NCBI GenBank assembly: GCA_950295325.1 | Contig: OX485809.1 | Coordinates: 17,004,144-17,068,143 of the forward strand | Reading direction: 5' to 3' | DNA from: Polytrichum commune | Taxonomy: Eukaryota > Streptophyta > Polytrichopsida > Polytrichales > Polytrichaceae | DNA length: 64,000 nucleotides | Part shown: positions 5,925-51,210 of the stretch, one piece after another | Layout of the letters: the number at the start of each line of letters is the position of its first letter | Position numbering within the stretch: position 1 is the stretch's first letter | The notes under the pieces: model-generated | Database searches by the model: none | Told to the model about the DNA's origin: nothing | What the model saw: only the letters and a program-made list of their open reading frames with translations | Made by a program: the position numbers and the translations under genes

Positions 5925-8344
5925 GGACTGATGATGGTTGGGGTGTCAGCTCTTGAACTTCCCTTTGTTGTGGGTGGAGGATTGGATTGGGTTGGCATCG
6001 TACTGTTGCATGCGAAAAGGGATGGCAATAAGTCAAGCGATGTGTGTTTGTCCGTATGAAGTGAAGTAGGTGTGGAGTTTCACTACGAGGATTGTGGGTA
6101 TTGCCACACACTTGTGTTTGACATAATGGTCTTTTGTGTCAAAGTAGCATGTTGGTTTGCCACTTTTACACCAAAGGACCAATGAGTCAGTTGCAAGTGT
6201 GTGTTTGAACCCACCATCGTAGGTATAGAAAGATTTGCCCACTCATGCATATATGTGGTCGCTTTGTGACTTTCTTGTTATTTTGCGTCATGATCACGGC
6301 AGATCTGCAAAGCCCAGGATAGTGATGATGACTAAAAAGCCTAAGACATAATTCTAGAAAAATTTCCAAGTTGTTCTATCTATCTATCTATCTATCTAGA
6401 TCTGGTAAAGGCTAAAGAGCCTAGAGTTTTTTTTCAAAAAATTAAAAATTCATATATGACCTACAAAAATTTGTAAAGTATATAAAGAAATGAGCCTTTT
6501 AGGGAAGTTAAATAACTTTAATATATTCCCCAAAAACCATAGTTGTGAAACTTATAAAGAATGTACGAACTTCGTTTGGAAAAATAATAAATTCATATGC
6601 AACCTAAAGATTTTTCCAAAGTTATTTTAAGAACTGAGTTTTTTAGACAAGTTAAATTGTTTGAAATAATTCTCAAAAATCCATAGGTTTGAAAACCTAT
6701 AATGAGTCTACACAATTATTTTAAAAAACAAAATTTCTATGCAGCCTGCAAAAATATGCAAAGTATACACTAACTTTGTGTAGTAGCTATGCAATAGCTA
6801 CATACAACTAGTATGTGAAGTCATTATGTGTAGCAAATATATGCAATAATTAGGTGAATAGCTCCTTTACCCAATAACTATGTTAGGTAGTAGTTATGTG
6901 TAGATGTGATGTGAGTGGAGTTGATGGGCTAAGGAGTTAATTTGGGATCTTCGAAGTGCATGCTTAAACCCCCTTGCCATCCACTTATCCTGAGCTAGAT
7001 ACTCATAAATGCCATGTTGGACCCTAACTACCAATAGATTTAACTACACTAAATAGGATATTTAGTCACTATGGTAACTTTTTGGATGACACTTCTTATG
7101 AATAAATGACCAAATATTGTCATGGATGATGGATGAGTTCATCCATGGGCCAAAACCCTACCTTATCAACAACTTCTGATGAAATATTGTCATGGACAAT
7201 TGCAATTTGGATGAGAAATCACTTTGTAAGTGATATTAATTGCAACATTGTATATCAATAATCCGCCCCCCCAAATATATATATATAATAAGGAATGACG
7301 AATAATATTGGGTTAACATTTCGTGTTGGTGACACTATAACACAGTTTATAATGAGTATTGAGCAAGACAATTCGAAATGGTGACACTAAGTATTATATT
7401 TAGTGTACTTTACTATGAATGCATTTTTAAATACTAAATAACTTACAATGAAATTCACATGATAAAATCAAAATGAAAAACAATGGAAGCTCGTCTCGCT
7501 ACACAGGTTGTCGGAATATCTTTAATGTAATCAAAATTATTATTTAAAAAAAAACGGGCCTCATGGCACAAGATGTCATAATATCTGTAGTATAATATAC
7601 CTACCACATAAACAATGTGAAATGATCATGGTCATTGCAACATGACCCAAATGACAACTATTTGATTGAAGAAGTCAAATCTGATTACTATATTGAATGT
7701 AGTCAAATTAACCATTTCTAATAAAATAAAAATGAAGTCATAATTGATGTCGCATTGGCCGTACTATCCTAGTATCTAGAGTTTGGACCACACTTAGTCC
7801 TTTGTGCAAATATACCTTCTCATCGTGACACACAAGAAGAGAAGAGCACAGTTGTCACACAATCAACTTTCTTCATGACTCTTCATTTAGGAATGATCCA
7901 TTCAAAGACATTGGAATGCATACTTGGTAAGCTTTTGTGAGAACTTATTTGTTAGTATGCATTGCCTTTTAAAGGCCCCAACTCAAGTGGCCCAATGCAT
8001 GTGGATTTTTGTGGAGAAACAATGTAGTTTTCAACTCCTTGAATTGGCCCGTGGAGAAAGTGCACGAGTGGTTTCGCTTATGGATTATGGTAGGATTGAA
8101 TGGCAAACAACCTTGAAAGACCTTAAAGGCTCTGGACATGGCCTATCACAATGTCTTTAATGAAGTTCATTATGTGTTTTGTTTTTTTGGGAACATAGGA
8201 GGCGCTTGACCACCTGGCTAGTTTTCCGTCAAGTAGAGAGACGATTTCATGGCCGGGAATCGAACTGCCAACCACTCCGTTCGGTTTGGGTACCTTTCCA
8301 CTGTCATCTGGTAGTTTAGGGTCATCTAAGACCAATGAAGTTGA
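5920..8344. other. AT-rich intergenic DNA, no gene seen
   Basis: No ORF with recognisable motifs or length. It contains a CTAT tetranucleotide run at about 6376-6398, a TA-rich run near 7275-7290, two copies of AAATATTGTCATGGA about 70 bp apart near 7112 and 7183, and a short match (ACTAAATAGGATATTTAGT near 7040) to sequence inside the TIR elements at 53.6 and 60.8 kb. Confidence 0.6.
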
Positions 8345-35619: not shown

Positions 35620-36184
35620 ATTCACAAGTGCCCACACATGCTTTATTGGATTCAAATCAGGTGATTGAGGAGGCCAAGTACATCAAAGTTTTGCATTGAC
35701 AACCACTGTTTGACTAATTTTCAATATGTTTAGGGTCATTATCGTATTGAAATGTGACACAAGAAGGGTTAAAACAATGCCATTCAATTGTCTTCATGAC
35801 CCCATTTTGAAGATTGCTTAGATACAAAGCTTGCGTCATCTTCCCCTCTATCTTACACATGTAACCCTCCCACTAGAAGTCATACAACCCCACACAAAAT
35901 TTGCACCACCTCCATGTTTAATTGTTTAATTCACATGATGAACTTGTAATTGAGATTCTACATCCCTCATCCAACACCAAATGCCATCATCAGACTGAAA
36001 TCAATTGATCTTAGGCTCATCACTAAAAATTATCCTATACTAATCATGGATAGTCCAATCTTGATGACATTGAGGAATTCCAACTTGCAACGCACATTCT
36101 TGGTTGTGAGCGATGACTTCTTCTCCTTCTTAATCACTCAAGACATGCTTCATGAAGTGAACGCCTTACTATGTTGGTGCTCAC
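35620..36184 (-). pseudogene. Tc1/mariner transposase pseudogene, catalytic half
   Basis: Reading minus-strand frames piecewise gives IIFSDEPKIN (first catalytic Asp), WGCMTSSG, FQYDNDPKHIEN (second Asp) and TWPPQSPDLNPIKHVWALV, the classic Tc1 C-terminal block. The expected glutamate of NPIE is replaced by lysine (NPIK), which would destroy the third catalytic residue. Several stops and frameshifts separate these blocks. The N-terminal half of the same gene is at 51200-51530, because the giant LINE has inserted between VVVSTN and IVRRSLHEACLE. Confidence 0.85.
36174..36184. repeat. 5' target-site duplication of the giant LINE
   Basis: TTGGTGCTCAC here is repeated exactly at 51200-51210. On the minus strand it encodes part of the interrupted Tc1/mariner transposase (VSTN). 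Confidence 0.9.
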
Positions 36185-36780
36185 CCAAATAGCATAATAT
36201 GAATTGAGGGGAGGAACGAGGGGCGGATGAGGAGCTCCGCATAGTGCGGTAAGGGGAAGGCAGATGGATCTGGGAGGAAGCCGCAGAGAGTTGGACATGA
36301 AACTCTCTACCTCATGAGCAAAGATCGTTGCACTTGACAAGGAGCATGGAGAGGCTAGTAGATGCGCTGGGGCGTCGTTGAAACAAGCAATGGTAAGATG
36401 GATATACAAGCATGCTTTAGTTTGGAAGCTCTTGTAGATCTAGATCTAAAAACTTATGTTGAACTTCTGCATTGTTATGTGTAGATGTATCAGGGAAATA
36501 TTTAGCTGAGTGTTGGCAAAAGGCGTGTGTTGCGCCAAATGAAAGAGTAGGTTGGGCTACTCCTTCACACCATTGCTTGTCCAAAACTAGAATGCCATGC
36601 TCCTAACTCAAGTGCAGAGATCCAAGCTCCTAGGCTACTCCTCACCAGATCCAACTCGCCCCCAGATCACACATGCAAGACACAACAAAAGATTCAAACA
36701 CCAACAATACAGGCTTGCACACTCTTACACCACCTTTGCAATCGATTTTTACTTCATAAGCTTGACACATTACCATACAA
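36185..36780 (+). other. 5' leader of the giant LINE
   Basis: About 600 bp without a convincing ORF. Unlike the rest of the element its first 230 bp are G-rich on the sense strand (GAGGGGAGGAACGAGGGGCG). An internal LINE promoter would be expected here, but I cannot point to an element. Confidence 0.4.
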
Positions 36781-38943
36781 ATGTGTAATAGCCCTACTTA
36801 CACTAACAAAGTGTCTACACTAACCATGCTCAACATAGAAATGTCTCCTTGTATGACAACTACGCAATTCCTAGACGCACAGGATGCCAACGCCAAAAAA
36901 CGCCAGATGACGCCCACCAACCTGCAACACCCATCAAAATTTCAGAAGACGCCGCATCAACAAATGCCACAAAGAGTCAAAGCTCACCACCAAAAAGACC
37001 AACCCAGAACCCAAACACGGCAAGGAGAGGTAAGACCCATCAACTCTTTAGAAACATGCAAACTGCATTACACACACCAAGATATGCAGAGTACCGGCCT
37101 CAAGACCAAGGTGGGACACACAAACACCAGCAGGAACACTGCCGCAAATGTACCAGCAACCACACCAAAACGCCACCAAGTTCAACCGATCAGCAAAAGA
37201 TGTCCAGTAACAAGCAGATCGAAGGCCCCCAGCAAAAACACCAACCCATCAAAGATACAATATGCAACCCAATACAACCCATCAAGACTAGGGAAACAAT
37301 CAACCCATTTGACGCCACCCCAACATCGAAAAAAACCACTGGAAAAGGTACGCTCAAAACCCAACCATGCAGAACCTGCCCCACAGGAATTCCAGGAAAC
37401 GAAGCAAAACAATTCAGCCAATCAAGGCGAACAACAGAAACCGACCCAAGAAAAACAACTACTCGACAACCACAGCTACAACGACCTTGCAAAGGTAAGA
37501 AATCTAACCACCTGCAGACATGTAAAGATCGGAAACCTGCTGAAAATGAGACAACCACCCACCGAACAGAACTACAACGGCTCCAACAAGGTAAGAAAAA
37601 AAACTCACCTACACACATATGAAGACGAAAGACCACCAGCTGCCGAACAAAACCCTGTGCAGATTACAACCAAATACGACTCCAAGACAACAGACAACAA
37701 CAACACCAACCCACCGACACCAACATGCCCCACATCGAAGCCTTACCACACCGAATCAGCGCCGAAACCAGACAACACCAACCCTGCACCGGCAAGCTGC
37801 AACATCAAACCCACATCGGGCAGAATCAACACCGACCCTGCACCGAGGAAAGACAGCATCAACTCTACAACGAAGGTAATCAACATCGAACCTGCAACAT
37901 TGAGGCCTAGCAAAAAAATACTCACCATGAGCAAAGCCGAAACCCAGCAACACAACAGATTCAACCAAGAAGAGGAATCAGCAAGAAGCAACGGAGCAAC
38001 CACACCACAGACATCAAAAAGGTATCACAGGAAAAACATCGAAGTTGAGAACACCATAAATACCGATGACAGACAAGGTATGGCAGTAATAACCGCCAAA
38101 AGATCAAGAATTACAACGAAAAGGGAAAGACAGAGAAGCACGATCCAGCACCACCGAAAACCTAACAGGAAAAACAAGATGTCATCACAGGCATCACTAC
38201 TGTCCAACACACACGACAAAAAACATCGACCAAAGACAGCCCCAATCGGCCAGTATAAAAGAGAGACACAGACACGTTCTCTCAACCACAACAACTTACC
38301 ACTACATTTCTTCTCCGACCCCCTCTCGAACTTGCTCAGACCGGACCTCTCGAAATCCGGCTCAAGATGTTACTCACTCTATAATCCTAGAAACAACCAG
38401 ATAGCATACGACTTGATAGAGACACCCCTTAGAGTAGACAGAAAGAAGCCCCTAGAGCGTAGGAAAAAACTTAGTACCAGATCACCACAGACAATAAGTG
38501 AGGGCCCTGTTGACCACACGGAGACGACCTCGGAACGGAGCCATAGCGAGAAAACGAAGCAGCGAGGAGCAGCTGTCACCGGTGCGACCTCGGAACGGAG
38601 CCACAGCGAGGAAACGAAGCAGCGAGGAGCAGCTGCCACCGGAGCGACCGCGGAACGGAGCCACAGCGAGGAGCAGTGGCTACCGGCGCGCGAGAAGAAT
38701 CGACCCAGGGGAGATCGCCCAGTAGCAGTGAAGTCGCACACCGAATACACTACACCGAACCAGAAAAGTGCAGAGCTGCGACAGCAGCTGATCGTCGCAA
38801 CAGGCCGTCAGAGAACGGAAACAACCCAGGTTTTTTTCACAAAGTCTCACCAATTAGTAGCCTTTGTTATACTATCTCCAACTCACATAAACGTCCCAGT
38901 ATTAGACCTAGGAATTTTTACTACACCAATGTACACTACATAG
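36781..38943 (+). CDS. Long low-complexity ORF in the LINE 5' region, unknown function
   Basis: An open frame of 720 codons rich in Thr, Lys, Gln, Pro and Asn. It is remarkable for its length but has no recognisable domain. Its openness may partly reflect the G-poor sense strand, which disfavours TAG and TGA codons. Residues of about 580-640 repeat ATSERSHSEETKQRGAA, encoded by a 60-bp tandem repeat. A second frame from 38676 overlaps its end and runs on into ORF1. It could be an additional retrotransposon protein upstream of ORF1, or non-coding. Confidence 0.3.
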   Translation: MCNSPTYTNKVSTLTMLNIEMSPCMTTTQFLDAQDANAKKRQMTPTNLQHPSKFQKTPHQQMPQRVKAHHQKDQPRTQTRQGEVRPINSLETCKLHYTHQDMQSTGLKTKVGHTNTSRNTAANVPATTPKRHQVQPISKRCPVTSRSKAPSKNTNPSKIQYATQYNPSRLGKQSTHLTPPQHRKKPLEKVRSKPNHAEPAPQEFQETKQNNSANQGEQQKPTQEKQLLDNHSYNDLAKVRNLTTCRHVKIGNLLKMRQPPTEQNYNGSNKVRKKTHLHTYEDERPPAAEQNPVQITTKYDSKTTDNNNTNPPTPTCPTSKPYHTESAPKPDNTNPAPASCNIKPTSGRINTDPAPRKDSINSTTKVINIEPATLRPSKKILTMSKAETQQHNRFNQEEESARSNGATTPQTSKRYHRKNIEVENTINTDDRQGMAVITAKRSRITTKRERQRSTIQHHRKPNRKNKMSSQASLLSNTHDKKHRPKTAPIGQYKRETQTRSLNHNNLPLHFFSDPLSNLLRPDLSKSGSRCYSLYNPRNNQIAYDLIETPLRVDRKKPLERRKKLSTRSPQTISEGPVDHTETTSERSHSEKTKQRGAAVTGATSERSHSEETKQRGAAATGATAERSHSEEQWLPAREKNRPRGDRPVAVKSHTEYTTPNQKSAELRQQLIVATGRQRTETTQVFFTKSHQLVAFVILSPTHINVPVLDLGIFTTPMYTT
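38525..38688 (+). repeat. 60-bp tandem repeat, 2.7 copies
   Basis: Units start at 38525, 38585 and 38645 with GACC(T/G)CGGAACGGAGCCA. The first two are full length and differ at a few positions. The third lacks an internal segment (about 44 bp remains). The unit length is a multiple of three, so all frames pass through it. Confidence 0.9.
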
Positions 38944-39266
38944 GTATGCTTATTTTGAAAGCACACACCCATGGCCACCGAATAGAAGTGAGTGAGGACT
39001 GGTCCCAATCATGCATGCCAACCTTTAGGAAAGAAAGTAATTATGAAGACATACAAACGAATTACTATGTTACCCTCTCTTACACCCATTACTCCTATAT
39101 GCATAAAAATTGGAACAAAACAACTCATATCTCCTTCTCAAAAGTCATGCTTCACCCGGCCCCACAAATTAAATTGTGGGGAGAAGAAGACCTAGAGATT
39201 ACAAGGAGCAACTCTATTAAACAAAATACCTTCAAAATATTAACACAAAGTCTTTGTATTTTCAGA

Positions 39267-40886
39267 ATGTCTCATCGGGCCACAAACTCAAGCTCCTCAC
39301 AAAGATATAAAGAAAAACTACTAGCCTTAGAAAACGACCCGGATGTAGAAATGTTTGTTATGCAAAAACGATCCTCTTCTACCACTCAAGTTACCACAAA
39401 GAAAGCCAAGGGCAAATCAAATTCCGGTTTAAAACGCCCTCCCTTTTGGCTAGGATTCCAAGCATTAAATCGGACGAATAGAGGGAAAGGACTCCCTATG
39501 GATAGCCCTATCCCGGTAGCCACTCTCGTGAAAAATGGAATGAGAGAAAAAGAGGCTAGAGAATGCCAATCCGTAATGGCCTCCTTCCCCTTTGTCATTC
39601 AAGAGGAATGGCCAAACTCACGGGAAGACGGTAAGATTGGCCAACATTTTAACCTCACTCAAATACCCTCGGATGTAGAGGTTGATAGATTCGGATTCTC
39701 ATTTGACTATCATATTGCTATTTACTTTGAAATGGGGGAAATGGAGTGGGAAAAAGACATGATTATGCCATTGGTAGAAAATAGACTCAAAGAGATGAAT
39801 ATAGAGCTTGGTGAGATAATAGGAGAGCCCATAGCTCTAATGTGTTACCACAAGTCCACAAAGTGGAGCGGGGTAATTAAACTCCATTTGAAAACCCCCG
39901 AGATTGACGGGGTGGGGCTCCTCCAAGGTCTCCGCCCCTTCATTCTTAAACTAGATGAGGGAAAATTCAAGAGGGGTAAAATATGCAAGACCTACGACTC
40001 CCTAGCCTTAAACAACCTCTTATCAGTGAAAATCACTAGCGAAGGGCTAGCCTCAAAAGAGTGGTTTGAAATGTTCGAAAAAATCGTCGAGGAGAGTTTT
40101 TTAAGGGGCACGGAGTATGAGATCACAAATATCCAAAAAAAGAAAGAAAACCTATTCGCGTGGGTAGTGGCATCCTCACCGGAGCAAGCCCAACGGATGA
40201 AGGAAAATCAACTCACCTACAACAACGAGATCTTGGACGGGAAGCTCGCTGATAGGACACTAGCATCCAAGGATGACATTGCAAGGAAGAATGCGCTCAT
40301 CCTCATCGCCAAAAACCTAAACAAAGCGAAAAGCATTGAAGAGATTGAAAAAAGCATCGAGGAGCACATGGGGGCGAAAAATGCGGTCAACTTCTTTTTC
40401 AAGCGAGACGAAAAAAACGGTAAGCATCTAGGCTCTTGTAACATCCAATGCCTAAATGCTATGGTTTACAAAAAATTTGGCAAAAAAGCGGTAAAACTCC
40501 TCGGTAAATACGTGGAATTTACCCCTCACCCTAGGAGCCTTGATGGAGCCAATGCTCCTAGCACACTTGAACTCACTAGGCTAGGGTTTAGTGATGTAAA
40601 CAATGCCCTTGCAAGTACTATCGAGACACTCAAGAACATTCCCGCCAAAGGAAACCTACACAAAGACCTAATGAAAGAAATAGTAGGTATAAGAGAGGAA
40701 ATTACCACTATGAAAGAAGAATTACGGAGCGAGCAACAACAAGTCGCGGAAAAAGCCGTGGAGAAATCAACATCTACCCTTTACACACAAATGACACTCC
40801 TTAAACGACAACTCGCCACAACCATGCAAGCATTGGAAATGGCTAGCTCCTCGGCCATTGAAGGAAATATGGATACAACAAACTAG
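39267..40886 (+). CDS. LINE ORF1 protein
   Basis: The ATG at 39267 (MSHRATNSSSSQRYKEKLLA) gives 539 codons and is the most sensible start. The frame is also open upstream to 38676, but that part is low complexity. The N-terminus is basic (TTKKAKGKSNSGLKRPP). The centre looks globular, with two possible RRM-like strands (KNALILIAKNLNKAKSIEEI and GSCNIQCLNAMVYKKFGKKA). The C-terminus is a heptad-rich helix (KEIVGIREEITTMKEELRSE and onward to about residue 530) that could trimerise as ORF1 proteins do. It would bind element RNA and form the RNP with ORF2p. Unlike ORF2 it is undamaged. The protein is less G-poor than the flanks, which suggests past selection for coding. The domain assignment is inferred. 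Confidence 0.6.
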   Translation: MSHRATNSSSSQRYKEKLLALENDPDVEMFVMQKRSSSTTQVTTKKAKGKSNSGLKRPPFWLGFQALNRTNRGKGLPMDSPIPVATLVKNGMREKEARECQSVMASFPFVIQEEWPNSREDGKIGQHFNLTQIPSDVEVDRFGFSFDYHIAIYFEMGEMEWEKDMIMPLVENRLKEMNIELGEIIGEPIALMCYHKSTKWSGVIKLHLKTPEIDGVGLLQGLRPFILKLDEGKFKRGKICKTYDSLALNNLLSVKITSEGLASKEWFEMFEKIVEESFLRGTEYEITNIQKKKENLFAWVVASSPEQAQRMKENQLTYNNEILDGKLADRTLASKDDIARKNALILIAKNLNKAKSIEEIEKSIEEHMGAKNAVNFFFKRDEKNGKHLGSCNIQCLNAMVYKKFGKKAVKLLGKYVEFTPHPRSLDGANAPSTLELTRLGFSDVNNALASTIETLKNIPAKGNLHKDLMKEIVGIREEITTMKEELRSEQQQVAEKAVEKSTSTLYTQMTLLKRQLATTMQALEMASSSAIEGNMDTTN

Positions 40887-43306
40887 CTTGGCCAACCAAT
40901 GCTACGGGAATAAAATATCCACACTTAATAGTATCTATAGATACCCTAACATATATTGAAAACTACAAAAGAAAAATAAATACACTAACCCAAATAAAAA
41001 GTGTTAAACAACACTACAACACTACAACACACAAACACAAAACAAAAACAAAATTCAAATAAAAAGTGTCAAAAAACACTACAAAGCAAATACACAACCC
41101 CTAAACAAAAACATGATTCAAATAAAACGGGCTCGGCCTATCGGCCTCGCCCAACACAAAGGAAAAAAACAAAAACAAAACAATCCACCCACCCAAACAT
41201 CTCAAAACCAACAAAAAACCATATACACTCATACACAAACAACATATAAAGCTCTCAAAAAACCCAAATACATAGCAAACGCCAAAACCAATAAAACCTC
41301 TACACTAAAAACCCATCGTAACAACCAAACCACCAATAGACCAATATACCTACAAACCAAATACAAATATTTTTACTCACACAAAGACAAAAAAATAAAA
41401 AACAACCCAATCCAACTACATACCAAACCAACTTGGCCACACCAAATAGTAACAATAGACAACCCACATCTACTAAAAATCATAAACAATATAACACATT
41501 CCAAACCCAAGATAACAAAAAATACACATATCAAAAAGAGAAATAAAGAAATACACCACATAAGTAATACCCAAAAACCAGACAGAAACATCACCACACT
41601 AAAACACACTCGACCTAACAACCATACCAATATAAAAATAAAAAAGAGAAATAAATCAAAAACATCCCAAACACTCAACACATCGAACGAACCCAACAAC
41701 AACTTAAATAAAAGAAACACACAACGAATATATAACACAAATACACAACCCAAACACACAACAATAATTAAAACTCCCACTACGGACACCCCTCATAACA
41801 ATGGAAAAACTCAACAAACCAAAAAAACCAATAGACTAATACACCTACATACTAAGTACAAACCTTACCAAACACACAAGCACAAAGTGACAAAAAAGAA
41901 CCCAATCAAACCACACAACAAACTAGTAGGACCAAACTCCAAAAAAATAAAAACCTCACACATAGTAATGTCCACAAAAAATATAAACTACTCTAAAAAA
42001 CCCAACACGAAAATAACATTACAAACCAAAATAAATTACGACAAAATACAAAACAAAAATAAAATACAACACCTAAATAAATACAATATCACACATAAAC
42101 AAGCTCGGCCTACCGGCCTCGCCATAAAGAAAGAGAAAGAAAAAAAGAAAAAATCCATAACTAACCAACCCCTTAAAACAAAAAACAAACCCTACAACAC
42201 ATCAACAAAAAGTCATAAAAATAACACAAACGCACAACACAAACTCAGAAAAACCAATAAAAAAAACCCCAACATACAACATACCCCAAACCCCACAAAA
42301 CTCTCACTATTAAGAGTCCGCATTACAAAAATAAAAACACTACGCAAACCAACAAAACAACGCACATACAAAATAAGCATAAACACCGCCTCTCATTCAA
42401 ACACAAAGTACCAATAAAGAACCTAACCCAAGTGCACCTCCTCCTGGTAGGCGGAAATACCAAAACTAACCTAAGACACATACCAGACACACTAGCGACT
42501 CACCCGCGTAACAAAAAATCTCACCCTATACCATACACAACCAAACTCCACCTAACAACACAACCCCTACCCATAAAACAAAACACACACCCAAAAAGCC
42601 ATAAAAACCCACACCTCTCCCTATACTTATCTAAAAAACAAAACTACCCACCACCACACACAATGCACGTACCCACCACCAAGTCCAACCCCTCACTAGG
42701 GAAATATAACAACAAAATAACACAAACACCTACCCAGGTATGGATAACAACACCCCCACACAAAAAGACCACATTACAAAACCCACCCGGAAGACACGCC
42801 TCTACCCCACACCCATACACACAAACTCTAAACTTAAACAACAATAATAATATTAATAACAACAATAATAAAACCATTAAACTACACCCACAAAGAAATC
42901 CACAAACATAGCAAAAAACATAGCATGCACATGTACATACCTATCCAGAAAAACAACAAAGACAAACACCCTAAGAAAATACACAAAACCGTTCAAAAAA
43001 TTAATAACAACTCTAACCACATTCACAAATACAACAAAAACACATCATACGGGCCCTTAAACCATATAAATAAAACCCATACCAACAATAAAACCCATAC
43101 AAAACACCAAACACTCACCACCATAACAAAACCTAAACAGCCTCAGACTACTTGTCTAGGCCAAAAAAGACATACCACTACTCCACCTCACAAAAGAAAT
43201 AGATTTGCGCACTCTAAACCAACACACAAAAACACTAGACTCTCAAGAAACATAAAAAAAACCCAATAATAACACATCAATTGGAACCCAACTACACACA
43301 AACAAA
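40887..43306 (+). repeat. Diverged internal tandem repeats between ORF1 and ORF2
   Basis: Very A/C-rich. A long frame (41113-42417, 434 codons, Lys/Asn/Thr-rich) is probably a by-product of composition. Two segments encode related text, TNRPIYLQTKYKYFYSHK (about 41335) and TNRLIHLHTKYKPYQTHK (about 41827), about 492 bp apart. The phrase GCTCGGCCTAYCGGCCTCGCC appears at about 41129 and 42103, 974 bp apart (twice that step). So the spacer seems built of old tandem duplications. Confidence 0.5.
42432..42911 (+). pseudogene. Degenerate duplicate of the ORF2 N-terminal (2A) region
   Basis: The text LLLVGGNTKTNLRHIP aligns with LLLLNGDIETNPGPMP of ORF2 at 43622. Further blocks also align: YTTKLHLTTQPLPIKQ with CTIKLQPEYQHLAKQ, NPHLSLYLSKKQNYPPPHT with HPHLSRYIQEKQQHPPQHI, and LQNPPGRHASTPHPYTQ with the corresponding LLQNP...RKPHPYTE. 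The essential 2A residues D, E, P, G and P are lost. This is a tandem copy about 1.2 kb upstream that has decayed. It ends in an AAT/AAC microsatellite-like tract (42838-42872). Confidence 0.75.
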
Positions 43307-43618
43307 TTGCACGCCAAAAACAACACCAAAAAGATTTACCACCAACACCAAACAGACACCAATAAAATAAAAAACCCAAGGCCTACCAACCATACCCAAA
43401 AAGAATATGCAACTACACCACCCCATAAAAATAGAAATATACACACAACATCTAAAAAACGTACAAAACACAATAAAACCCAACACCAAAACCACATAAC
43501 TCATAAATCCCCAAAAACCCCCCCAAAACCCCCCCCAAAAACCAACAAACAAAAATACCTTACTAACAAAAACAACACCACCAACATACCAAACCACTCA
43601 AACAACCGCGCCACGGAA

Positions 43619-43663
43619 CTCTTACTACTCCTCAACGGAGACATCGAAACTAACCCGGGGCCA
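43619..43663 (+). other. 2A-like ribosome-skipping motif (D-I-E-T-N-P-G-P)
   Basis: The frame reads LLLLLNGDIETNPGP, matching the D-(V/I)-E-x-N-P-G-P consensus with the usual hydrophobic run before it. 2A sequences cause the ribosome to skip the Gly-Pro bond, releasing the upstream peptide. They occur at the ORF2 N-terminus of some non-LTR retrotransposons (trypanosome L1Tc/ingi and several animal LINEs). Here it would separate a basic N-terminal leader of up to 118 residues from the endonuclease part. Confidence 0.9.
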
Positions 43664-43962
43664 ATGCCAAACATACTTAAAACACACCCACCATCACACA
43701 AAAATAGGAACAAAACATATTTCATACCTTGCACAATAAAACTACAACCAGAATACCAACACTTAGCAAAACAATTTGCTGCATGCCTGAAAACAACACA
43801 CCCAAATTATACTACCACATCCATAGATCATCCACACCTCTCAAGATACATACAAGAAAAACAACAACACCCACCTCAACACATACTATACGCACTCATC
43901 ACCACAATAAGCCCACTACTAACAACATGTGACCACCAACTAATACACACACCCAACCCCGA

Positions 43963-45333
43963 TTGGACAACAACACTCCTCGAAAAAATGGCACTTCTTC
44001 AAAACCCCCAGAGAGACATATCCGGAAACCACACCCATACACAGAATTTATAAACAACAACCAAAACCTAATTAAACCCCCCAACACCATTCACAAACAA
44101 TTATATGACCTCATGAAACAAAACAACCACCCCCCAGACCTCCAACTACTAAAAAACAAATTCCCATTCCTACCCGAAAATTTACTAATAGAGGCTCTTA
44201 AATACAACGAACCCATGACGGAATATTCGCACCCACCCCCAATACCCAATATACCACCTCCACAAAACCAAGAAATACAAACAACTAACCATAACACACA
44301 CATCATCACATGGAACGCCTCATTTTTAAACACAGCACTGCCAAACTTATACAACCTAATTGAAAACACCACCACAAGCCCAGCAATCATCACAATACAA
44401 GAAACCAAACTAACTGCAACAAAATCAACAAAACATATACAAAACTTATTCCCAGAATACAAATTAATTTTTAATAACACACATGCTCTAACAAGATGCA
44501 TACAACAAAGAATGCCATACACCCCGGCAAGGGGAGGACTCCTCACTCTAATAAACAACAAATATGCATACCCAGGAAATATCACCAAAATACCCACCCC
44601 AGCGGTGATATCACCATACTTACAAATCATACAAATACAAAATACACCACTACAGTCATGGCTAATCTTACACATGTATATGCCTTCTCACCTAGAAGAC
44701 ACCCAATATATCGCAACAATCCAACAACAAATAACGCAACAAATCATAGCACACCCAAACCACACCTACATACTATGCGGTGATTTTAATAGAGACATAG
44801 CTCTCATAGGAAGACAAAATGAAAACAACATAACACCCCCACAAACAGAAGATGAAGAATGATGTACATTCACAGACAACCTAAATCTAACTTACATTCC
44901 AATAGATAGCACATTCACCAGACAGGGCGGACAAAACTACACCCAAACAAGCTTAATTGATGGATTTTATATCCACACACCCAACAATGCTCTATACACC
45001 TCAACCATAAATCACGATTCCAACCTAAACTCAGATCATTCACCAGTCACACTACAAATACCACCCAACACACTCCTAGCCCGCCCCACACAACAAATAA
45101 TAAACAAACCCCCAAGGATCTTAAACCCCATCCCACAAGAGAACATGGAAAAACTCAAAATAGTATTCTTCGAAGAAAACTCCCTCCAAATAAATGAACT
45201 CACTACAATACTAATGAATGAACACTTAACAGACACTCAATGGCAAACATCTTGCACCAAACTAGACAACCTAATACAACAACTATCAGAAAAAACCCAA
45301 GAAACTTGCAGCCCCCCCCCCTGCCCCCACTAA
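43963..45333 (+). pseudogene. Apurinic/apyrimidinic-type endonuclease domain of ORF2
   Basis: Conserved blocks: IITWNASFLN (catalytic Asn), IITIQETKL (metal-binding Glu), ILCGDFNRDI (Asp and Asn) and, after an in-frame TGA at 44860-44862, LIDGFYIHT and NLNSDHSPVTL (catalytic Asp-His). This is the fold that nicks target DNA in most LINEs. The stop replaces what is likely a tryptophan (EE*CTFTDNL). The frame ends in a C run near 45320 where a frameshift leads on to the RT. Confidence 0.9.
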
Positions 45334-47511
45334 CACACCGCACAACTCAACAGGGAGGATTTTTGCCAAGAAAACTACAAAAACAATGGAAAAAACATCT
45401 GTCTACATACCACCTCATAAGAAAAACAATCCACATCACAAAAACCATACCATTATGGCAAAACCATCCAATAATGGAAGAACTAAAAAAACACAAGTAT
45501 ATCACTATCCCCCCACCACCTCATCCAGATATAAACCCACAAGAATGGATCAAAACATTAGCAGAACTAGCCAAAACCGCGAACAGACACGCACGAAAAA
45601 TTACAAATAAATACACCCAAGAATGTATCAAAAAAGCCATCGCAAAATATAGACAATTATACGATAAAAGCCAAAAAAAAACAAATAATAAAGTTTTTAA
45701 GAACCAAGACACACCACCATTAGATTGCATTAGAAACAGAAACAACAACATACTAACTAACCCAAAAGACATACCAAATGAAATCCATATACAACAATCA
45801 ATTAGTAACAACCCAGCAGTGCCCACATGTTACCATCAACCAGAACACACAAATCATTGTACATGTGCAGTTAAACAATATCCCTGGCACGACCTTGATG
45901 GATTTGTGATAAATACAAGAGGAGACCCACAAATACCACTATATAAGTACTTCAACCAAGAAACATATGACTTATGTCTAAAACACCTATCCAATAACAA
46001 AACACCAGGCCCAGACAAAATCCCAAACTCAATTCTAAAAAACATGCCGGACAGTTTTCACACAATACTAAGCCTATTTTTCACACATTGCTATAAACAA
46101 AAAAAATCCCAACATCATGGAAAACAAGTCTAACCATACTTCTATACAAAAAATGAGACCCATCACTATTAACAAACCACAGACCTATAGCTCTTGCGAA
46201 TACAATCTACAAATTATTTACCAGCACGCTAACACTAATACTATCAGCATATGGTGAAAAATATCAAATATTACACGACAGTCAATAAGGTTTCAGAGCA
46301 GAAAGAAGCACATCTAGACAATTACAACTACTCATAGCAGCCTTAGAGGATGTCAGATTCACAAACCAAAATATATACCTCCTATATATAGATTTCAAAA
46401 ATGCATTTGGCTCTCTCGACCACGCCAGACTTTTAGCTATAATGAAAGACCTGGGATACCCAGTAGATGCAGTAACACTAATTGGAAATATCTACGCACA
46501 CTCCACCACCATATTTACCGGCGAACACTTCGGCAGAACAAAACCAATACCCATCCAAAGAGGCACCATCCAAGGTGACACCCTAAGCCCATACATATTC
46601 CTAATATTCCTTGAACCATTACTCAGATGGCTACAAAGAGGCAACAATGGGTATACATTTGGTACATCCAAATTAACCATTAGCTCTGCAGCATACGCAG
46701 ACGACCTCGCTGCAGTAACAAACAATCTCCAATCACTACAAACGCAACTAAACAAACTAGATAAATTTTGTACATGGGCTGGAATGGATTTAGTTGTACA
46801 AAAATGTGCCATCACGGGTTGCCCTAACAAATCAAAACTAAGCCCTGCAAAATTCAAAACCCAAATACAAACCATAACATATCCTACAGAAACCAACCAA
46901 TTCCCGTTCTACATCAAAACGAACCATATGTATACCTAGGAATTCAACTAGTACCCTCACTAAAATGGAAATTGCAAACACACATCACCACAAACAAAAT
47001 AAACCACCAATGCAAACAACTAGCCAACTGCCCTGCCACAATTAAACAAAAAATCAGTATGATAGACACCGTCATTAGAGCAGGCATAGCATACAGTTTC
47101 TATGCGGTTCCATATTCACTCCCGACTATAAAAAAACTAGACAAAAAAATTATAGGAATCCAAAAGACAATATGCGGACTACCTAAATGCACAGCAAATA
47201 TAATAACCCAACTACCCCACGAACTCTTTGGCCTAGAGGCCTTCTCACTAAAAAATGCATACTTAAGATGCATAGGTGAACAGCTAAGAAACGCACTTAA
47301 CGACCAAGGAAGACTAGGTACAATATACAAAGGACTGATACACCACATATTAGCAAAATACGGAGGTGCAGAAGAAATCCCAAGAATAACACAACATGAT
47401 TGTACCAAATCACCGACTATACGCACCCTATTTCTCTTAAAAACTGCCGGAGGAATCCATCTTAAAAGCACAAATGAACACTTCCTACTACATATGACGG
47501 AATTAGAATAA
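45240..47511 (+). pseudogene. Reverse transcriptase domain of ORF2
   Basis: Blocks in order: NNKTPGPDKIPNSILKNMP (RT 1), NHRPIALANTIYKLF (RT 2a), GFRAERSTSRQLQLL, motif A LLYIDFKNAFGSLDH, motif B IQRGTIQGDTLSPYIFLIFL, motif C AYADDLAAV (catalytic Asp pair), then GMDLVVQKCAITG and VYLGIQLVPSLKWK. These are typical LINE RT signatures. Frames change near 46100 and 46911, and stops interrupt at about 46153, 46287 and 47509. The thumb-like region (46972-47511) resumes in frame after the last stop. Confidence 0.93.
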
Positions 47512-47643
47512 GAATGGCGTCCACAAGCTACAAACGAACTCCCACACCTCAACCCCGACTTATCACTCAAACTACTACATAAATTATTAATCCACAACAT
47601 ATACAGAATACAACATATCACCCTCCCAAACGGAACAACCCTT

Positions 47644-50166
47644 ATGGCACCAGACGACTTCAAAACTTACCACAAAATACCATCCAAATTAGAAAAAAAA
47701 GCACTCCAAATAGCCGAACAATTGTTTTGTCACCCAACATGCACACCAAACTGCTCAAACCCCTGTACAAGACACCCACCCGCTCGCACGCTTAAAGCAA
47801 AATACGTCTCAAACAACCAACACCTAGTACCAAGAGCACCAAATAATCCACCCCAACCCACAACTCCGCAGCAACAGCTTCACCCAAACCCACCCCCCAA
47901 CGTAAAAAACAACCCTATAAGATTCAACATTAATATAATACTAAACCACAAAACAAATATCACAAAAGACAAATACAAAATAACAAAAAAATACAACACG
48001 TACTTATGCCAATGGACCCTCCAAGATAATATTATATACAACAAATGGATGACACAAAGAGAACTCTTTCCATTCAACCACCCAACAGTCATCACGCATA
48101 ACACTACACTTCTTACAGAATATTATACAAAACTACAACACACACATTATAAAAAAATTCTGAATACACACTTTACCCCTGAACAAAACAGAGACACAAG
48201 ATTCATCCCCCCACCTACAACTATGTCACTCACACAAATATTCATAAATGAATGCAACCCAGAAAAAGACATCTTAACCAATACAGATACTATACAAATA
48301 CACAATGAGCAAACCCACATATATGAGGACACAGGGAAACATATTATCACCATACCCACAACCAGATTAAAATGGCTTTGGCAACAATACAATAAAGCAA
48401 AATACAGCTCACATGGGCTAATACCACAAACACAAACATTTGAAAAAGAAATAGTATGGCTCTACCAGAGATACAAAAGTAAAATTCCCAAAAATGGATC
48501 AATAAAAACAACACTTCACACCTTACCCACAAACATAATAGACTCTCTCATAACCACCTTCAATATCTCACAGTCATACTTCTCCTCACCAGTATCGTGC
48601 TCAACGCAAATTTCAAAATTTTACTCCCTTTTCGCGAGAGACAAAGTCTTCGGAGCACTAGGAACCGCATTCCAATATAAATGGGAAGGTATAGGCTACG
48701 CCCACCCACACAATGAAGAAACAGCCCAACAAGCAATCCATTGGGCAAGATTAGCTGCCAAAAATGATCCAAACACCATCACTATAGTAGTATTACCAAA
48801 CATAAACTGGTATCAAGACCCATCCCCGTATACCGGACCATTCCCAGACACACACGTCATTTGCCACTTCGCTACAGACACAATCACATACGAAGAACCA
48901 ACAATCCCACAAGAGAGACAAAAACCGAAAACAGAGCCACTAGCAATACAAATTCTATGTATACACCATCAAAACCATAATATTAGCACAACTCATCAAA
49001 TGAACCCACTCAGAACAATACTTGAAACCCTACAAATCCCACAATACTACCTTCGCAACGCCCCACCCACCCCACTCAACACACCAGTCAACAAAAGCAA
49101 AAAATGGAATAAGCTCATATACCCTCCCGCAACCTACCAAACCACAATTAACACACCACCACTTCCAAACTTCACAACAAACACCACACTTAAATTCCAA
49201 CCACAACATTGCTATTATACTGACGGCTCCTTCATACCTCCCACCCAAAAAGCTAACAGACATTGGAAAAAAGAAAAAGCAGGATATGGAATATACAACG
49301 CAACCAAGACAGACATGCAAATATCGAAAAGACTACCAGGGCTACAAACATGCTTTCGAGCAGAACTAATGGCCATCCATAAAACACTCAAACTAATATC
49401 CAAAAAATACCCAAACGAACCGGCACACATATTTACAGATTGCCTCAACTGCTTGTATAACCTAAACACACACATTAAGCACCCTACCATGCACAATAAC
49501 CACGCAGATAAAACAATACTAACAAACATGGTAGAAATATTAAAAAACCGCACCCAACCCACTATATTTCACAAAGTCAAAGCACATATCAATATAACAG
49601 GAAATGAACAAGCAGACAAACTTGCAAAAATAGGAGCCAAAAAAATATACTCCATCGCCTCAAAATCATACGAACATGCACATACTACACCATTTTATTT
49701 CCAAAAAGACATATGGCCAGGTCCTATAAAACGACCAGATGAGGGTCGTGTGAGATGCCTACAAACATACCTAAAAAAACATGACCAAGAAAATAACATT
49801 GCAGTCATGACAAACCAATTCCCCAATATTAGCAAATGGACCATGAATCCAGACATTGATAATGAACTATCCAATGCTTTCTGGCACAACACCATGATCA
49901 CAGATGCACAAAAAACTAATATATTAAAATTCCGCACCGGCCAATACATGGGTAATGCAAGAAAACAATTATTTTTCGGAAGAGAGAGATTCCCCTCAAT
50001 AACATGCCCTATTTGTAACTCTGAAGATGCGGACACATGGCTCCACGTACTACTGAAATGTAACCAACATCATATCCATGCCATAAGAGTGAAAAGACAC
50101 AACAAAGCAGTATGGGAATTGAGGAAACTAATCATGTCATCAAATCCAGATGCTATACCCTCATGA
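47644..50166 (+). pseudogene. ORF2 linker, RNase H domain and zinc knuckle
   Basis: An open frame of 840 codons. The first 500 or so residues are a linker with no domain I recognise, including a cysteine cluster CHPTCTPNCSNPC. RNase H follows: YYTDGSF (catalytic Asp), CFRAELMAI (Glu), IFTDCLNCL (Asp), HKVKAHINITGNEQADKLA (His and Asp). All four catalytic positions are present. A zinc knuckle CPICNSEDADTWLHVLLKC lies near the end, as in many LINEs with RNase H. The frame then slips at about 50150 into the restriction-like endonuclease frame. Confidence 0.9.
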
Positions 50167-50666
50167 ACGCAGGAACATTTAACAATAACCCCCAAGAAAA
50201 TACAGTACCCCCATGGCTATTAGCATGCTCATGTATACAACAAAGATGTCACTGTAATGCAAGATTTAAACCAGACATTCTATGTGTAAAAGGCCACCCA
50301 TACAATAACAACCCACCATCAAACCCATCAGACAACCTTACAATACAATTCATTGAATTTACCTATTGTAACGACAGATTCCCACAAGAAACAATTTCTA
50401 ATAAAATCCAGAAATATCAACCTCTAATAAACAACATTGCAGAGTTAGGCTGGAAAGTCGACCCACTCATAGTTATAACAGCAGGAGCTAGAGGCACAAC
50501 CCACACCCCCTCAATGAAACTCTTTGAAACGAATTTCAAAATCTCAGAAACCACCATTAAGCACACATTCAAGGAAATCAACACCATTGGCATACAATAC
50601 GCTGGATCAATTATTCTACATAAAAGAAAAATAGAAAACAACCAACCCCTACCTCCCGACCAATAA
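50112..50666 (+). pseudogene. C-terminal restriction-like (PD-(D/E)xK-type) endonuclease domain
   Basis: The text NARFKPDILCVKG, then QFIEFTYCNDRFPQET and NKIQKYQPLI, matches the layout of the restriction-like endonuclease of R2/R4-type LINEs: (K/R)PD, then a strand ending in an acidic residue (IEFT), then a lysine helix (K..KY..L). WLLACSCIQQRCHCN before it is a cysteine cluster that may bind zinc. The domain sits after RNase H at the very C-terminus, in the place where Dualen elements carry their second endonuclease. Frame continuity from the preceding ORF requires one frameshift. The fold is inferred from motif order only. Confidence 0.68.
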
Positions 50667-51199
50667 AACAACACAAACGAACAAGTACAGAAAGGAATAT
50701 ATATAAATAATATAAATATAAATAATTAAAAAAAACATATACATATATTAAAAAAATACTTTATGTATAACACAGATCTAGCTCAAAGTGTCCACTTGTC
50801 TCAGGAGAAGGGATAGGGCCGGCTGGTTCTCAACAAACTTTCCTGCCTATGATAAGAATCACTAGCAGCACCAAGTCATGTTTACCATTAGAACGCTCAA
50901 ACGGACACGAAGGGAATCGAACCCGGACCGCTCAAACGGTAGTACAAACATTCCAACCAACCTTGGAACCATGACTTGGTGCCCTAAAACAAAAGACAAA
51001 CACCCATATATACCCCATAGATGAATCAACCCTACTAAGGTTACTGTTACCTATCCTCAGTTACTAAAGTGTCTATTCCCGAAAGGGGAGAGTAGTCGCG
51101 ACACAATGGTCCTTTGTCCTGTGGACTCTGGCTCATTGACGGGACGAACAGACACTCTATTCACGCCGGCCCCCCCTGGGGCAGGTGTTCATATCTATC
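50667..51199 (+). other. 3' UTR of the giant LINE
   Basis: Contains a 13-bp inverted repeat with a tRNA-like core (50868-50982). The final 78 bp were copied, truncated, into the Harbinger element at 12178. The end is CATATCTATC, and extra TATC units can be added as in the 12.2-kb copy. Confidence 0.75.
50868..50982 (-). other. tRNA-like hairpin in the LINE 3' UTR
   Basis: A perfect 13-bp inverted repeat (GCACCAAGTCATG at 50868-50880, CATGACTTGGTGC at 50970-50982) encloses minus-strand sequence. That sequence has a tRNA T-arm CCGGGTTCGATTCCCTT (box B-like, 50926-50910), a D-arm/box A-like TGGTTCCAAGGTTGG and a 4-bp variable-arm-like ACCG...CGGT hairpin. It is not a convincing functional tRNA, since acceptor and anticodon arms do not fold cleanly. 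It lies antisense to the LINE. Confidence 0.45.
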
Positions 51200-51210
51200 T
51201 TGGTGCTCAC
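51200..51210. repeat. 3' target-site duplication of the giant LINE
   Basis: TTGGTGCTCAC, identical to 36174-36184. Confidence 0.9.

Follow-up and report, generated by a model that had tools for sequence, protein, structure and literature searches.

A large LINE of Dualen/RandI-type domain content with a PCIF1/CAPAM-like domain in its polyprotein

The founding paper on Dualen/RandI elements is reportedly that of Kojima and Fujiwara from 2005. In excerpts of later publications, which are also the basis for all other literature statements made here, these long interspersed nuclear elements (LINEs) are described as combining an apurinic/apyrimidinic-type (AP-type) endonuclease (APE), a reverse transcriptase (RT), an RNase H and a restriction-like endonuclease (RLE; PMC4640811, PMC3636483). 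They were proposed to represent a link between RLE-type and APE-type LINEs (PMC4640811), and green-algal RandI ends in a 3' repeat other than poly-A (PMC3747384). Regarding land plants, L1 and RTE are the only LINEs named in the excerpt of a review (PMC9033089). The element described here occupies positions 36185-51199 of a 64-kb stretch of DNA, referred to as the window, and represents a single full-length but decayed member of a large LINE family. Its assignment as Dualen/RandI-type is supported by domain content, namely an AP-like endonuclease located upstream of the RT, an RNase H, an RLE-like block and a 3' tail of TATC units instead of poly-A.

The presence of a putative RLE next to an APE in one element, the RNase H and the simple-repeat tail are features shared with Dualen/RandI. 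Unlike these elements as described in the excerpts, the family additionally features a PCIF1/CAPAM-like domain and a 2A motif, reaches 12-17 kb in length and has a probable land-plant host; a methylase domain is not mentioned in the available excerpts of Dualen accounts (PMC4640811, PMC3636483, PMC3747384, PMC8226300, PMC12747079). Similarity to R2 concerns the RT, whose best matches in the Protein Data Bank (PDB) are three R2 proteins, and the RLE landmarks, whereas R2 and other RLE-only LINEs differ in that the family also possesses APE and RNase H and was found at 15 different insertion sites. APE and RNase H are likewise known from plant L1 and RTE LINEs (PMC9033089), from which the element is distinguished by its C-terminal RLE-like block (unproven) and its TATC rather than poly-A tail. 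Based on sequence comparisons, the family is likely to represent a large LINE of Dualen/RandI content comprising an AP-type endonuclease, an R2-like RT, RNase H, an RLE-like block, a conserved 3' end with a predicted fold, a (TATC)n tail, target-site duplications (TSDs) of 11-15 bp at AWG|T and a PCIF1-derived domain. The same likely reading includes that some family members would be young enough for recent activity.

Copies and open reading frames of the element

The element is bounded by an exact 11-bp repeat, TTGGTGCTCAC, which occurs nowhere else in the window (two occurrences in 64 kb, 0.03 expected), as stated in the original prediction made from the letters of the window. Further copies were searched in a 408-Mb assembly consisting of 64 contigs, seven of which account for 406.07 of 407.81 Mb, making n = 7 likely. 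In this genome, four matches to the LEAFY domain (PF01698) exceeded the cut-off, which fits a land plant as the probable host; LEAFY is also present in certain charophyte algae. The 5'-end probe (first 816 bp of the element) yielded 16 matches from 15 candidates, the window copy counted in, and with the 3'-end probe (last 439 bp) 37 of the best 40 of 1,498 candidates stopped at most two bases from the last base of the element. At 11 other places, 5' and 3' ends were located on the same strand at a spacing of 12.6-17 kb. Adding the intact copy A and copy C2:30.9, both with a 5'-probe match and a separately located 3' end, 13 other copies were obtained. Because both ends recur together in these copies, the 15 kb constitute one element and not two insertions. 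Hence, the full-length structure that the original prediction proposed to seek elsewhere in the genome was recovered. Flanks fetched for 10 of the 11 paired copies featured exact duplications of 11-13 bp in all ten cases, and further TSDs were found for copy A (14 bp), copy B (12 bp), C5:9.38 (13 bp) and C2:30.9 (10 bp when exact; 15 bp, judged by eye, if one mismatch is allowed). In total, a duplication was present in 15 of the 16 copies examined, window included; none was found for C5:35.1, for which the fetched piece ends short of the 5' junction. Copy B (G000:C2:42781479-42793454) belongs to another subfamily, termed B, is approximately 12.0 kb long and has its own TSD.

In copy A, the coding capacity is organized in two overlapping open reading frames (ORFs), and the same overlap was observed in copy B. 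ORF1 forms a single frame of 1,310 amino acids (aa) in copy A, 1,297 aa in a sibling copy and 747 aa in copy B. The original prediction had placed a separate long ORF before ORF1; because the sibling shows one 1,297-aa frame at this place, this ORF is the N-terminal part of ORF1, and a separate upstream ORF was ruled out. This N-terminal part is less conserved (approximately 56% aa identity to the sibling, compared to approximately 89% for the rest), and neither copy A nor the window showed a Pfam match in ORF1 at E 0.1. ORF2 comprises 2,919 aa in copy A and 2,625 aa in copy B, and open frames of 2,625-2,924 aa were found in at least six relatives. It starts with a low-complexity leader followed by the 2A motif GDIETNPGP, correctly recognized before, which conforms to the definition (D/G/C/N)(V/I)ExNPGP (excerpt of PMC12846837), and continues with the AP endonuclease, the RT, the PCIF1-like domain, RNase H, a CCHC knuckle and a KPD...E...K block. 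For copy A, Pfam matches were obtained in the order Exo_endo_phos_2 (PF14529, E 9.9e-8), RVT_1 (3.3e-27), PCIF1_WW (2e-12) and RNase H (3.3e-15). In the window copy, ORF2 changes frame five times and is interrupted by two in-frame stops, both in frame 1 (44860-44862 and 47509-47511), and a tblastn comparison of copy A with the window passes successively through frames 2, 1, 3, 2, 1 and 3.

Enzymatic and PCIF1-like domains of ORF2

All motifs quoted in the original prediction (GDFN, SDHSPV, YIDFKNAF, YADD, YTDGS, TDC, KPD, IEFT and KIQKY) were located in the window (Table 1), and the claimed co-occurrence of AP-type endonuclease, RT and RNase H in one LINE was confirmed by Pfam matches in the window and in copy A. 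The three R2 proteins matching the RT best reached 107-120 bits, compared to 72-76 bits for L1 ORF2p, with best E-values of 7.8e-34 (one sequence) and 2.7e-32 (four-sequence profile) for R2 versus 8.1e-20 and 2.8e-20, respectively, for L1 ORF2p. This affinity, which concerns similarity scores and not a phylogeny, fits a placement of the RT towards the RLE side, the position given for Dualen in the excerpt of PMC4640811. In an NCBIfam scan, matches were confined to group II intron and retron RTs, all below their cut-offs, and a chance hit.

Between RT and RNase H, a domain matching the family PCIF1/CAPAM (cap m6Am methyltransferase) was identified, which had been missed before. According to the excerpt of PMC7641849, the corresponding Pfam entry PF12237 represents a methyltransferase of the CAPAM type rather than a WW domain. 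In the genome, all 150 scored matches to PF12237, out of 697 candidates, exceeded the cut-off, and the entry also matched 13 of the 13 aligned members. These comprise copy A, the window copy and 11 loci out of 20 fetched, the rest being broken or near-duplicates. None of 14 control genomes produced a match, a result of little weight. In a PDB profile search, the only matches with E <0.1 were the PCIF1 chains 6irx (0.0058) and 6irv (0.026), and in the 6irv alignment HPHN stands opposite the catalytic NPPF motif. Unlike in PCIF1/CAPAM, this motif is lost: in 23 of the 23 copies read, the sequence found instead is AHP followed by H/P and N/T/S. Disruption of NPPF reduces or abolishes PCIF1 activity (excerpts of PMC6318281 and PMC10544176). 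Because NPPF is replaced in every copy read, the domain probably does not act as the known methylase. The ratio of nonsynonymous to synonymous substitution rates (dN/dS) for the PCIF1 region was 0.09-0.40 (the 10 pairs in the dS range 0.02-1 out of 58 that were computable), compared to 0.07 for the RT region (one of three computable pairs in the same dS range); with a mean of 0.16, the domain is under purifying selection and thus has a function. A viral-contig scan with the PCIF1 alignment revealed no relatives. Moreover, no report of a PCIF1/CAPAM-type domain inside a LINE was found in the searched literature on PCIF1/CAPAM and transposons. Algal Dualen elements may carry the same domain unrecognized.

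Downstream of RNase H, the C-terminal part of ORF2 shows the layout C-x2-C...H-x4-C, RHN, a second Cys cluster, KPD, IEFTY and K..KY. Of 4,847 genomic candidates for this block, 150 were scored. An alignment of copy A and 17 of 20 fetched loci, from which the near-duplicates L048 and L054 and the broken L060 were omitted and which does not include the block of the window itself, showed D of KPD, EFTY and K..KY to be invariant in the 18 copies, and K and P of KPD to be conserved in at least 90%. A profile-profile comparison (hhalign) with three aligned R2 endonuclease sequences, whose letters were taken from PDB chains, gave a collinear match with H-x4-C, RHNK, KPDI and K..KY in register at E 0.0034, the probability being just 9.6% despite this E-value. 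In comparison, the PCIF1 and RT alignments reached E 0.88 and 0.35. When columns were shuffled 200 times, a single shuffle scored above the real 26.6 (129.4, an odd value and perhaps an artefact, still counted), the next one scoring 26.5, and the reversed alignment scored 15.2. Mean dN/dS of the region was 0.12 (27 of 142 computable pairs with dS 0.02-1). A viral-contig scan with this alignment again revealed no relatives, and a match to the arenavirus cap-snatching endonuclease family, seen for one of the 18 members at E 0.092 and below the cut-off, was given no weight.

Table 1. Features of the element and its flanks in the window; all positions refer to the window.
Feature	Position	Strand	Basis	Landmarks
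Target-site duplication, 5' copy TTGGTGCTCAC	36174-36184	+	exact pair with 51200-51210	
Full-length LINE, 15,015 bp	36185-51199	+	TSD outside; both ends recur jointly in other copies	
5' segment, poorly shared	36185-36227	+	similarity starts at element position 29 in the sibling and at position 44 or beyond in the other listed copies	
ORF1	36781-40886	+	one frame in copy A and sibling	split in window into 36781-38943 and 38676-40886
Decayed second 2A and N-terminal module	42435-42824	+	37% aa identity	approximately 1.2 kb upstream of intact 2A
2A/StopGo motif GDIETNPGP	43637-43663	+	sequence motif	
AP-like endonuclease (WNAS, QETK, GDFN, SDH)	44299-45048	+	PF03372 E 4.1e-7	GDFN within 44773-44790; SDHSPV within 45028-45048; one in-frame stop, 44860-44862
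Reverse transcriptase (YIDFKNAF, YADD)	46100-47100	+	PF00078 E 3.6e-14; copy A 3.3e-27	YIDFKNAF 46385-46408; YADD within 46688-46705; spans a frame change
Cys cluster CHPTCTPNCSNPC	47728-47766	+	sequence motif	
PCIF1/CAPAM-like domain, NPPF replaced	48406-48801	+	PF12237 E 3.3e-11, over Pfam cut-off	GYAHPHN 48694-48714
RNase H (YTDGS, RAELMAI, FTD, GNEQAD)	49210-49638	+	PF00075 E 3.2e-14	YTDGS within 49213-49233; TDC within 49429-49449
CCHC knuckle and RHN motif, frame 1	50005-50121	+	motifs, profile comparison	
RLE candidate (Cys cluster, KPD, IEFT, KIQKY), frame 3	50226-50663	+	relatives in genome, profile comparison with R2	KPD within 50262-50276; IEFT within 50352-50366; KIQKY within 50400-50417
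3' untranslated region stem CACCAAGTCATG / CATGACTTGGTG, 12 bp, around antisense tRNA B-box-like site	50869-50981	+	by eye	GGAATCGAACC 50913-50923
Conserved 3' end, predicted fold, TATC tail	51030-51199	+	24 copies aligned	
Target-site duplication, 3' copy TTGGTGCTCAC	51200-51210	+	exact pair with 36174-36184	

Element ends and target sites

Based on 15 junctions, insertions prefer AWG|T: all 15 junctions have T at position +1, 14 have G at -1, 14 have A or T at -2 and 12 have A at -3. The chance of finding G|T at 14 or more of 15 junctions amounts to 5e-17 at a local GT frequency of 0.057, for a motif that was chosen after viewing the data. The T at +1 may partly be derived from the tail, as the tail shares it. 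Eight further 3' flanks, from subfamily B (L078-L085) and read on the 3' side only, were not counted. Site-specific insertion was rejected because 15 different sites were read.

For the last 170 bases, a shared fold of 34 base pairs was predicted from 24 copies. At seven of these pairs, both partners have changed in one copy or more, and covariation contributes little to the folding energy (-1.27 of -28.32 kcal/mol). A further stem in the 3' untranslated region encloses GGAATCGAACC, the minus strand of which we take to resemble a tRNA B-box, and stem and site are, by eye, largely kept across subfamilies. ARAGORN detected no tRNA in the window, and an Rfam scan of the element returned only a PreQ1 match below the gathering score, which was taken as a chance match.

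The numbers of 5' and 3' candidates were 15 versus 1,498 for the window family and two versus 1,893 for subfamily B. The far smaller number of 5' candidates fits 5' truncation; 5' ends also diverge faster. Among full-length copies, the first approximately 12-75 bases differ from copy to copy (by eye), and two such ends used as queries (L021:97-164 and L023:96-166) both matched different repeats that occur in many copies in the genome (114 and 850 candidates). These matches would fit 5' transduction or template switching. In subfamily B, for which the 5' probe found two places, the best 40 of 1,893 candidate 3' ends are 98-100% identical and three members feature a 2,625-aa open frame; because of these two observations, the subfamily may still be active.

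Base composition of the window element is strongly asymmetric between strands (A 0.42, C 0.27, G 0.13, T 0.18), and third codon positions of copy A ORF2 (G 0.057, A 0.475) look like the result of strand-specific mutation pressure. Copy A itself is embedded in host DNA, with adjoining transposase-like frames (L001 846-1370 and L002 from approximately base 6835, by eye).

Alternative explanations and proposed mechanism

The scattered reading frames of the window copy could be explained by two or more unrelated insertions making up the 15 kb. Only one exact TSD pair lies outside the element, its ends are paired in 13 other copies and intact copies hold the parts in two overlapping ORFs; this recurrent full-length structure rules the explanation out and leaves it with a negligible probability. 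Independent acquisition of both endonucleases, in a lineage distinct from Dualen/RandI, would be in line with the absence of 2A, a PCIF1-like domain and comparable length from the excerpts of published Dualen accounts. The domain set of APE, RT, RNase H and RLE is the one given for Dualen/RandI (excerpts of PMC4640811 and PMC3636483), and this origin is regarded as improbable. For the PCIF1-like domain, purifying selection and the invariant A-H-P in 13 aligned copies would also be expected of an active adenine-N6 methylase with a changed motif acting on RNA or DNA of the element. N and F of NPPF are replaced in all copies read and PCIF1 depends on this motif as described above, which makes retained methylase activity doubtful.

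Several observations weigh against the assignment as a two-endonuclease LINE with a PCIF1-derived domain. Pfam and PDB profile searches of the C-terminal block returned no RLE match, the hhalign probability is low, R2Bm scores 62-71 bits and thus under L1, so that the resemblance of the RT to R2 proteins varies, and the PDB matches to PCIF1 chains are weak taken alone. The first two points, together with the extra Cys cluster between the RHN and KPD motifs, would also suit a Cys-rich nucleic-acid-binding tail, in which case the element would be a single-endonuclease LINE of the AP type. In opposition to such a tail, the R2 landmarks appear in order at an E-value below those of the PCIF1 and RT alignments, only one shuffle reached the score, the runner-up being 0.1 lower, the reversed alignment fell far behind, and the central KPD, EFTY and K..KY positions are conserved. 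The tail is considered unlikely and the C-terminal block, with moderate support, probably represents an RLE. Of the corresponding claim in the original prediction, the RLE-like character is backed by the R2 comparison, and a match in standard profile collections was not obtained.

For the two-endonuclease LINE, a mechanism is proposed in which element RNA would be copied into the target by target-primed reverse transcription. The RT would bind the folded 3' end, and the strand complementary to AWG|T would receive the first nick, with the site's T pairing with the tail. The two endonucleases could share the two cuts, or one of them could set the site preference. Furthermore, the 2A motif would separate a leader peptide from the polyprotein that holds the enzymes. 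Instead of methylating, the PCIF1-like domain might bind RNA of the element itself at the capped 5' end and thereby mark full-length templates or join the two RNA ends; such cap binding is put forward tentatively. Slightly more speculative is the complete scenario, in which a plant LINE captured CAPAM/PCIF1, lost catalysis and reuses the domain to recognize its own capped RNA, while two unrelated endonucleases split the cuts at AWG|T.

The element is real, single and Dualen/RandI by content, with an unexpected captured domain; the combination of two endonucleases and a PCIF1-derived domain in one LINE was not found in the literature searched. As a plant family of many copies with several uninterrupted ORF2 frames, it provides material for asking which endonuclease does what. 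The conserved pseudo-methylase of the cap-writing CAPAM family within an RT polyprotein suggests that a LINE can read the RNA cap and, if the complete scenario is true, the family would represent a cap-reading, two-nuclease retrotransposition machine.

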